Source of the DNA: Candidatus Treponema caballi
GTDB taxonomy: Bacteria > Spirochaetota > Spirochaetia > Treponematales > Treponemataceae
NCBI GenBank assembly: GCA_018066285.1
Contig: JAGHRS010000002.1
Span: 186,001-250,000, forward strand
Length of the DNA: 64,000 nt
Direction of reading: 5' to 3'
Shown here: piece by piece, positions 56,562-59,071 of the stretch
Numbering within the stretch: the stretch's first letter is position 1
Layout: each line of letters begins with the position of its first letter
Position numbers and translations under genes: made by a program
The notes under the pieces: generated by a model
Database searches by the model: none
What the model was told of the DNA's origin: nothing
Seen by the model: the letters and a program-made list of their open reading frames with translations, nothing else

Positions 56562-57212
56562 TCAGTTCTTTGAAAGGTCAATGTTCTTTCCAATCAGACC
56601 GACAAAAGCACCCTGCTTTGCCTCTGATGAATCCGGATGAGCAATGAGCCACTTGTTGCGTGCCCACAGGAGCTTATCCTCTGCGTCGATTTCCTTCAGT
56701 TCCGGCTTTGCTGTGTTTGTGTCCTTTGGCAGAACGATGATGACGCGGAAGCCTTCTTTAGAAACTTCACCGTCGCGTACTGCGTTACATGGAGCATAGT
56801 GCAGAGTTGTCTCATACACCTGAACAACAGTGCCTGCTGGAACATAGAAAGCCTCAACCAGGTCGGTGTCAAACTTTCCGTTCTTTACATCCTGCAGAGA
56901 ACCCAGCATAAGGATGCAGTCCTTTGAAGGAATGTTCAGCTCAGAGCCGATATGCCACTCAAGGCAGTTCAGCTTTGTGTTGTTTCCGTTGCAGAAACCA
57001 ACCTGAATCGGCATGCCGCCATAAGCGTTCGTGCTGAATTCCTTAGCAACAGGCAGAGCTTCAAGAGCTGCAAGACCTGGCTCGTAAATAACTGCATCTG
57101 CTGGAAGGTCTGTAACCTCATCAAGCTTAGCAAGAAGATCCTTTACATCATAGCCCTTAAGGACTTTTCCGTATTTTTCGAATTTGTGGCTGAAAACAGA
57201 TTTAATAACCAT
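56562..57212 (-). CDS. DUF4867-like protein
   Basis: 216 aa; YGGMPIQVGFCNGNNTKLNCLEWHIGSELN...AFYVPAGTVVQVYETTLHYAPCNAV; family name from memory. Confidence 0.7.
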   Translation of the reverse strand: MVIKSVFSHKFEKYGKVLKGYDVKDLLAKLDEVTDLPADAVIYEPGLAALEALPVAKEFSTNAYGGMPIQVGFCNGNNTKLNCLEWHIGSELNIPSKDCILMLGSLQDVKNGKFDTDLVEAFYVPAGTVVQVYETTLHYAPCNAVRDGEVSKEGFRVIIVLPKDTNTAKPELKEIDAEDKLLWARNKWLIAHPDSSEAKQGAFVGLIGKNIDLSKN

Positions 57213-57324
57213 ATATTACCTCTTTCTCTTAGTATACCATGATTTCTAAATAGCGGTACACAAAATTGTTAGGGAAAACTTCTGAAAATGCGGGCGTTGC
57301 GTCACAACCTGCGGTTGCGCCGCC

Positions 57325-57391
57325 GGGCTTTCCGCTGTTCCGGGCAGCCGCCCTCCATTCCTCCGGAACGGCTCCGCCGCAGCTCCAATCC
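57325..57391. repeat. GC-rich REP-like intergenic element (copy E3)
   Basis: GGGCTTTCCG...GCAGCCGCCCTC...GGCTCCGCCGCAGCTCCAATCC; same block order as 1384-1461. Confidence 0.5.
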
Positions 57392-57405
57392 CTAACGCGG
57401 GATGA

Positions 57406-57727
57406 CACTGCCTTTTTGCAGATAGATTTAATTGCCGACCGTCCAATGCCACCTGAAAGCGGCTGCGGGACGGTCTTTTTGCAGCTGACATTGATTGGCG
57501 ACCGTCCAACGATATGTGAAAGCGGTTGCGGGACGGTCTTTTTGCAGCTGACATTGATTGGCGACCGTCCAACGCCATATGAAAGCCACTGCTGGACGGT
57601 CTTTTTGCAGCTGACATTGATTGGCGACCGTCCAACGCCATATGAAAGCCACTGCAGGACGGTCTTTTTTCAGACAGATTTGATAGGCGACCGTCCAGTG
57701 TCATCTGAAAGCGACTGCAGGACGGTT
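57406..57727. repeat. 63-bp tandem repeat array, about 5 units, each a terminator-like hairpin
   Basis: GACGGTC phase positions 57469, 57532, 57595, 57658, 57721 (exactly 63 bp apart) plus degenerate unit at 57406; each unit has GGACGGTC + T-tract and GCGACCGTCC. Confidence 0.95.
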
Positions 57728-57748: not shown

Positions 57749-58879
57749 TTAAAGAAATTGAACAGCCAGCTGCCTCAGCAGCATGTCACAGAGCGTAATG
57801 GCGGCCATAGCCTCCACTACAGGGACGATGCGTGGACAGAGGCACACGTCGTGCCTTCCGGTAATCTTCATGTCGGCCGCTTTGCCGTTTCTGGTGACTG
57901 TCTGCTGCTCTTTCGCTATACTCGGGACCGGCTTTACCGCCACACGGAAGATTATGTCGTTTCCGTTTGATATGCCGCCAAGAATGCCGCCCGCGTTGTT
58001 CGTCACAAACGCCGGACTTGCAGATAAGGCCTCATCCGCTTTCAAGGCAGCCGGCCGCATGGCGTCGTTACACTCGCTGCCTTTCATACGGGCAACAGCG
58101 AACCCTGAGCCGAACTCAATGCCCTTTATGGCACCAATAGAAAGCATGGCTTTTGCAAGCTCAGCGTCCAGTTTGTCAAAAACAGGCTCACCAAGACCGG
58201 CCGGCACCCCGCGGATAAGGCATTCAACAACGCCACCCGCGCTGTCACCTTCCGCCCGGAGAGAAGCGATTTTCTCTTCCATGAGGGTTGCTGCCTTGTT
58301 GTCACATGCGCGCATGCTGTTTTCCTCAATGCAGTCAAGGTTGAATTCGTTGCACTCAATGCCTGCCGCTTCTGTCGTAAATGCCGTGATAGAAAAGGGC
58401 ACCAGCGCTTCCAGCACCTGACGGGCGACAGCGCCTGCTGCGACGCGCGCTGCAGTTTCACGGCCTGATGAGCGGCCGCCTCCCCGGTAATCGCGCCTTC
58501 CGTACTTTGCGTCGTACGTGTAGTCAGCGTGACCGGGACGGTACATGTCCTTTATGTTGCTGTAATCAGCGGAGTGCTGTGATGTATTCCTTATAATGAT
58601 GGCAATAGGCGTTCCTGTCGTTACGCCTTCAAAAAGCCCCGAGACGATTTCTGCGCGGTCTGCTTCACTCCGGCTGGTGACAGCGGCATTGGCGGCCGCG
58701 GCCTTGTCAGCAGATGGCGCTTTCTGTCCCGGGCGACGCCTGTCCAGCTCTTTCTGAATGCGGTCAAGGTCAAGCTTAATGCCGGCAGGACATCCGTCAA
58801 TGACGCAGCCAAGCGCATCCCCGTGGCTTTCGCCGAAAGTCGTGACTTTGAAAAGAGTTCCGAATGTGTTTCCTGACAT
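57749..58879 (-). CDS. aroC: Chorismate synthase
   Basis: MSGNTFGTLFKVTTFGESHGDALGCVIDGCPAGI, RPGHADYTYDAKYGRRDYRGGGRSSGRETAARVAAGAVARQ; start set at 58879. Confidence 0.95.
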   Translation of the reverse strand: MSGNTFGTLFKVTTFGESHGDALGCVIDGCPAGIKLDLDRIQKELDRRRPGQKAPSADKAAAANAAVTSRSEADRAEIVSGLFEGVTTGTPIAIIIRNTSQHSADYSNIKDMYRPGHADYTYDAKYGRRDYRGGGRSSGRETAARVAAGAVARQVLEALVPFSITAFTTEAAGIECNEFNLDCIEENSMRACDNKAATLMEEKIASLRAEGDSAGGVVECLIRGVPAGLGEPVFDKLDAELAKAMLSIGAIKGIEFGSGFAVARMKGSECNDAMRPAALKADEALSASPAFVTNNAGGILGGISNGNDIIFRVAVKPVPSIAKEQQTVTRNGKAADMKITGRHDVCLCPRIVPVVEAMAAITLCDMLLRQLAVQFL

Positions 58880-59071
58880 AATCTGCTCCGTAAATCGCAT
58901 GTAAGCCGATACCGACATGCGACAGTAATCATCGTACCCAATTTGTGCCAATCGTGCAAGTTTTCATGTATACCTGTAGTGTAAATCAGGGAACTTTTCT
59001 CAGAAACATATTGAAACTTGTGCATAAAAATGCAATAATCTGCATAAACTTACGAAAATATGCGTGGAGAT

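Follow-up and report, generated by a model that had tools for sequence, protein, structure and literature searches.

The 63-bp array beside aroC in this Treponema genome looks like a scaffold for a putative DNA-binding protein, not a terminator row or a peptide gene. Judged from its sequence, it is, with its counterparts elsewhere, probably a row of phased double-stranded binding sites for a putative dimeric (or oligomeric) sequence-specific protein, a reading that we hold with modest confidence. The dyads that compose the arrays have a fixed length, invariant arms, helical spacing and an AT/GC pattern, and in an orthologous clostridial pair their arms change more slowly than the rest; we infer protein binding, a dimeric state and cooperativity. 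Among several roles first proposed for this array, that of a repeated protein-binding element is the one that gains support.

The array in the window and its family in the genome

Within the window (the whole analysed stretch of 64,000 nucleotides), Tandem Repeats Finder calls the array with a period of 63, 5.0 copies, 87% matches and a score of 416. It sits between two minus-strand genes, aroC and a DUF4867 gene, and its unit comprises a 39-bp dyad, GACCGTCC-N23-GGACGGTC, and a 24-nt linker, with five dyads in all:

56562..57212, minus strand: DUF4867 protein (PF16161), start codon 224 nt from the array
57412..57726, no strand: whole array, period 63 (Tandem Repeats Finder)
57437..57475, no strand: dyad 1, GACCGTCC-N23-GGACGGTC, 39 bp (exact pattern)
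57500..57538, no strand: dyad 2, 39 bp (exact pattern)
57563..57601, no strand: dyad 3, 39 bp (exact pattern)
57626..57664, no strand: dyad 4, 39 bp (exact pattern)
57689..57727, no strand: dyad 5, 39 bp, right arm GGACGGTT with one mismatch (pattern with mismatch)
57476..57688, no strand: span with the four 24-nt inter-dyad linkers; half-site spacing 31 within a dyad and 32 between dyads
57749..58951, minus strand: aroC, chorismate synthase (PF01264), 3′ end 21 nt from the array

The first-pass annotation had read GACGGTC at 63-bp intervals, and the motif does recur at 57469, 57532, 57595 and 57658, but GACGGTT stands at 57721; the preceding unit, which it took to be degenerate, is a complete exact dyad at 57437-57475 and brings the count to five. 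The T-tract ascribed to every unit, five or six T long, follows right arms 1-4 and is missing after the fifth, and the minus-strand stop of aroC is indeed close by, at 21 nt rather than 22 bp. Between the DUF4867 gene and the array, a GC-rich segment at 57268-57396, edged by GTTAGGG and CCCTAAC, may be a separate small element. No DUF4867 gene was found beside aroC in the orthologous aroC neighbourhoods of the same genus.

The dyad belongs to a family spread over the genome. A genome-wide search for exact GACCGTCC-N{10,40}-GGACGGTC, which permitted total lengths of 26 to 56 nt, returned 15 dyads, each exactly 39 nt long, and the reversed-pattern control returned none. When up to three mismatches were allowed, the whole genome yielded 20 dyads with zero or one mismatch, none with two and three chance-like ones with three. 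These 20 are confined to exactly four intergenic clusters, namely C5 (the window array, five dyads), C4 (six), C24 (five) and C66 (four). The core arm ACCGTCC is invariant in 40 of 40 half-sites, the outer G being replaced by A in five, and the interiors show no conservation from cluster to cluster though arms and lengths are identical. Because interiors and linkers differ, C4 and C66 are not tandem repeats by Tandem Repeats Finder. The 63-bp period, which had been taken as the defining feature, is thus an amplified local form of the more general 39-bp dyad family.

The family is strictly clustered. Half-sites of the form GACCGTCC are in no excess outside the arrays (61 in 1.2 Mb, 35 of them inside arrays), the Treponema genome holds no singletons or decaying copies of the dyad, and a de novo search of its 1.2 Mb for further arrays of same-length dyads recovered the known four only (control 0). 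Six genomes of the same genus gave 0 matches to the array, and in the family of 275 genomes two others have isolated, chance-like matches. Phage records gave 0 matches to the window array and chance-level matches only to the C4 array, which, as the sole query against plasmid records, was likewise at chance level. Six viral-contig loci recovered with single-dyad patterns resemble terminators or chance palindromes on inspection, and Actinobacterial matches in the collection scan (GC mostly 0.68-0.75) were taken as chance. No link was seen between the arrays and replication-strand switch points as judged by GC skew.

All four Treponema arrays adjoin a gene 3′ end, and the adjoining genes have no common function. 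Several local features accompany individual clusters. The gene downstream of the C4 array (L019:9740-10540, minus strand) encodes a protein that has no Pfam match and is similar, in its C-terminal half, to PD-(D/E)XK proteins from candidate defence systems (PDC-S68, 1e-23). The C24 array is flanked by a 14-bp direct repeat, GCATTGTTGACGGG (L020 6728-6741 and 7095-7108), which has no further copy in the 1.2 Mb of genome, looks like a target-site duplication and is not seen at the remaining three arrays. Three of the four arrays also have another palindromic repeat, CCGCTAGAGGGGGCAG ... GGGGCAGGCGCCCC, no more than about 200 bp away (L019 11088-11152, L020 7245-7414, L021 155-175); its C24 copy includes a stretch with a sub-threshold match to TD-2 in Rfam (36.2 bits, cut-off 48.7). 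The dyad arrays themselves gave no Rfam hit at E up to 1, apart from a RAGATH-8 alignment in one part of C24 that scored 20.5 bits, far below its cut-off of 86.7.

Spacing, interior pattern and change between genomes

Lengths within and between dyads are held to narrow values. Half-site centres lie 31 bp apart in 20 of 20 dyads, and linkers are 23, 24 or 25 nt long, apart from a single one of exactly 56 nt in each of C4, C24 and C66. The resulting dyad spacings are 62-63-95-63-62 in C4, 62-64-95-63 in C24, 63-95-63 in C66 and 63 four times in C5, where 62-64 bp and 95 bp correspond to 6 and 9 helical turns. At 10.5 bp, 31 distinct spacings from 16 arrays, Treponema and clostridial together, give a vector length of 0.88, which exceeds all 20,000 uniform draws, with the proviso that spacings within one array may be inherited by duplication and are then not fully independent.

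The interiors, divergent as they are, follow a common base pattern. In the 15 non-duplicate Treponema dyads the centre is A or T in 15 of 15, flanked by GC at positions ±3-7 and AT at ±10-11, and the AT contrast is 0.318 against 0±0.055 when each interior is shuffled, although the corresponding P value is not independent because the pattern was seen in the logo before testing. Three clostridial dyad spellings, which played no part in defining the contrast and are therefore independent sets, have a similar AT/GC/AT profile. When the halves of one interior were compared with chimeras made with halves taken from other dyads, the true halves paired less well in each of the four families, with 97-99% of the chimeras above the observed value, and their folding energy was no better; thus, no extended hairpin is being kept. 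Sequence alone is compatible with recognition of a single-strand hairpin, since all arms are palindromic. Nevertheless, the low interior pairing, an arm spelling that stays invariant with no compensatory change, and the whole-turn spacing favour recognition of the duplex.

Analogous dyad arrays were found in clostridial MAGs by a scan of one genome per species. The pattern imposed both the ACCGTCC core and a spacing near 63, and these two features of the clostridial loci are thus selected; spacings of 53, 74 and 85, fixed lengths and other arm spellings were not imposed. Two draft MAGs, G276 and G277, carry fixed-length dyads in three spellings, ACCGTCCCAA/TTGGGACGGT at 35 bp, ACCGACTAAA/TTTAGTCGGT at 36 bp and ACCTACTAAA/TTTAGTAGGT at 34 bp, whose interiors vary around a central A- or T-tract. 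Clostridial array spacings are 53, 62-64, 73-74 and 85 bp, with one outlier at 59, and a related genome, G355, has four dyads spaced 64, 74 and 73. The ACCGTCCCA form is carried by 7 of 117 genomes of the clostridial family, and a search of viral contigs found no ACCGTCCCAA dyads. At three G276 loci (L062, L063, L066) a 36-bp ACCGACTAAA and a 35-bp ACCGTCCCAA dyad abut with the same 4-bp gap, suggesting a composite unit. Beyond clostridia, a Bacteroidaceae MAG has a 63-bp array of 4.3 copies (L029 1962-3290) with a half-site spacing of 31/32 bp, 168 bp from a RAYT-like ORF (NF047646, 1.8e-5).

Related genomes reveal how such arrays change. In two orthologous ACCGTCCCAA dyads in one gap of G276 and G277, the arms differ at 1 of 40 positions against 17 of 58 in interiors and linker (Fisher P=0.0005), with lengths kept. 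The adjoining array in the same gap is spelled ACCGACTAAA throughout in one genome and ACCTACTAAA throughout in its sister. A further orthologous gap holds four dyads in G355 but a single one in G276 and G277; the difference amounts to exactly 211 bp (three dyads) and ends at a dyad, which indicates that arrays grow and shrink by whole units.

Weighing other origins

A series of intrinsic (or bidirectional) terminators shielding aroC from antisense transcription, as was first suggested, is in line with the T5-6 that follows four of five window dyads on the plus strand, with GC-rich stems of at least 8 bp, with the good folding of the whole window array as RNA (z -5.2) and with the gene 3′ end next to every array. 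Termination, however, needs neither exact arm spelling, exact 31-bp internal spacing nor whole-turn spacing; moreover, the loops are 23 nt long, the interiors avoid pairing, T-tracts in the other clusters are patchy and follow some dyads only, and the region has 2 terminator-like sites against 1.4 in shuffles, which is no excess. The GC stem, short loop and T-tract of an intrinsic terminator are not found together here, and we consider this function improbable. Equally hard to credit is a neutral minisatellite, in which slippage would have copied a palindrome that arose by chance. In its favour, the units in the window match at 87%, and one clostridial array differs by whole units between related genomes (211 bp, three dyads), yet the three other clusters combine non-matching interiors with identical arms and lengths, and orthologous clostridial arms are conserved. 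The first-pass annotation had named mutations scattered randomly over arms and loops as the sign of a chance minisatellite. In the window array, 1 of 16 arm columns is variable against 10 of 23 interior columns (Fisher P=0.014), and 8 of 24 linker columns vary as well, which runs counter to chance and refines its remark that the arms are conserved while the loops vary. The open frames that it saw on both strands are present: the period of 63 is a multiple of 3, and two ORFs run across the window array, one of 152 aa on the minus strand and one of 234 aa on the plus strand, as a gene for a 21-residue repeat peptide would have it. The other three clusters, by contrast, have spacings of 62, 64 and 95 that break any frame, and each has stops in all six frames, which excludes coding for the dyad family; we give the peptide gene next to no credence.

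The main rival to the binding-site reading is an origin of the REP/BIME or REPIN type, in which alternating inverted palindromes, now partly decayed, would have been spread by a RAYT transposase reading a single-stranded hairpin; we think this unlikely, though deserving of close comparison. BIMEs are defined by alternating orientation in intergenic clusters (PMC2817692), just as half-sites alternate within the four clusters here, and REPIN spacers keep their length more than their sequence (PMC3116915), which likewise suits these dyads. The Treponema genome encodes a single RAYT-type Y1 transposase (247 aa, C26:13850-14176 in L051 and L052; Y1_Tnp 1.5e-16; NF047646 77.6 bits, cut-off 80). The REPs that flank it, GGGGACGGTTCTC, have GGACGGT in common with the array. 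The RAYT-like ORF near the Bacteroidaceae array and the 14-bp direct repeat that brackets C24 and is unique in the 1.2 Mb point the same way. However, the REP of the RAYT, GGGGACGGTTCTC, is a different sequence from the array half-site, CGACCGTCCA, so the array repeat is not the one that flanks the rayt gene. The 12-mer GGGACGGTTCTC of the RAYT's REP occurs in 54 exact copies, or 72 with one mismatch allowed, mostly in C26, C7, C42 and C1. Most of these copies stand singly or form pairs of like orientation, spaced irregularly at 21-49 bp, while the array dyad lacks singletons and decaying copies. A palindromic dyad of 39 bp, a length within the 20-40 bp of a hairpin-read palindrome, is present, yet its interiors pair less than chimeras, and descriptions of REPs name no helical phasing. 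Y1 transposases are present in the Treponema genome and in that of the Bacteroidaceae array, and none was detected in G276 and G277, draft MAGs with phased arrays, by a Y1_Tnp match. With a RAYT-like ORF near one array, a different REP and no Y1 match in these two MAGs, a RAYT origin is therefore possible, not required.

A putative scaffold among known repeat systems

In the binding-site reading, a single protein unit would recognise an inverted pair of ACCGTCC half-sites, with centres a fixed 31 bp apart, and would bend the AT/GC/AT-patterned DNA between them. Adjacent units would lie on the same helix face, 6 or 9 turns apart, and therefore could bind cooperatively, forming a compact nucleoprotein block between genes. 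A point against such binding is that the half-sites are short, 7-8 bp. Arrays occupy co-directional gaps (C5, C4, C24, L060, L061, L063, L065), convergent gaps (L064, L066) and a divergent gap (L062), which is evidence against control of a single promoter. An output that insulates or organises local DNA topology, instead of operating one promoter, is suggested only because of this variety of gaps and is the least certain step of the proposed mechanism. More broadly, and tentatively enough that we would not lean on it, gut bacteria from two or more phyla may have in common a kind of intergenic element that has so far gone undescribed, in which bend-patterned dyads of fixed length follow one another at whole helical turns. 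A putative protein of species-drifting specificity would bind them, and they would serve as nucleoid scaffolds or topological insulators, not as single-promoter regulators. If the binding-site reading is right, a repeat otherwise filed as a minisatellite or terminator row would be the footprint, in both spirochaetes and clostridia, of a putative protein that organises DNA or belongs to a mobile element. With their fixed arms and helical spacing, the arrays offer ready bait for finding the binder and a signature searchable in other genomes, and they provide a test case for separating REP-type hairpin elements from arrays of double-stranded sites.

A literature search on the motifs and on phased palindrome arrays found no description of these elements, and the nearest published systems each match them in part. 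BIME/REP clusters with RAYT (TnpA_REP) share short alternating inverted repeats, intergenic clusters and dissimilar inter-repeat segments. In contrast, the array half-site has 8 bp and is no 20-40 bp palindrome in its own right, spacings inside and between dyads are fixed to whole helical turns, singletons are absent, the repeat differs from the REP flanking the genome's only RAYT, and no RAYT was detected in the clostridial carriers. REPINs (Bertels and Rainey 2011, PMC3116915) also have two inverted conserved ends around a less conserved spacer of constant length, and tandem clusters of them exist, but the array spacer avoids pairing beyond the arms, its ends are 8 bp against 16 in REPINs, and in the Treponema genome it is solely clustered. 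CGTC-tagged REPs (Di Nocera 2013, PMC3733652), reported in Spirochaetes and Bacteroidetes without a dedicated transposase, share CGTC with the half-site; they combine a stem of 8-9 bp that begins with AT with a loop of 4-5 nt and a CCA tail, and they seldom cluster, whereas the loop here is 23 nt in 20 of 20 dyads, that combination of stem, loop and tail is not found, and clusters are the sole form. Published REP, BIME, REPIN and CGTC-REP elements (PMC2817692, PMC3116915, PMC3733652) thus share the alternating intergenic layout, but none of them is described with helical spacing, an unpaired interior of 23 nt or a lack of single copies.

CRISPR had rightly been set aside at the outset: the 8-bp half-sites are inverted, and the linkers in the window array repeat one another. 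The parS centromere bound by ParB, TGTTTCACGTGAAACA, is not found inside the arrays; two perfect canonical parS sites lie elsewhere in the genome (G000 C25:6100 and 6228), 128 bp apart. Phased operator arrays include the 43-bp sopC centromere repeats of F, ComK boxes and Lrp-type sites about three turns apart. The Treponema array differs from these in its sequence, its four dispersed chromosomal clusters and its putative binder, and would share with them inverted half-sites at helical intervals and cooperative binding.
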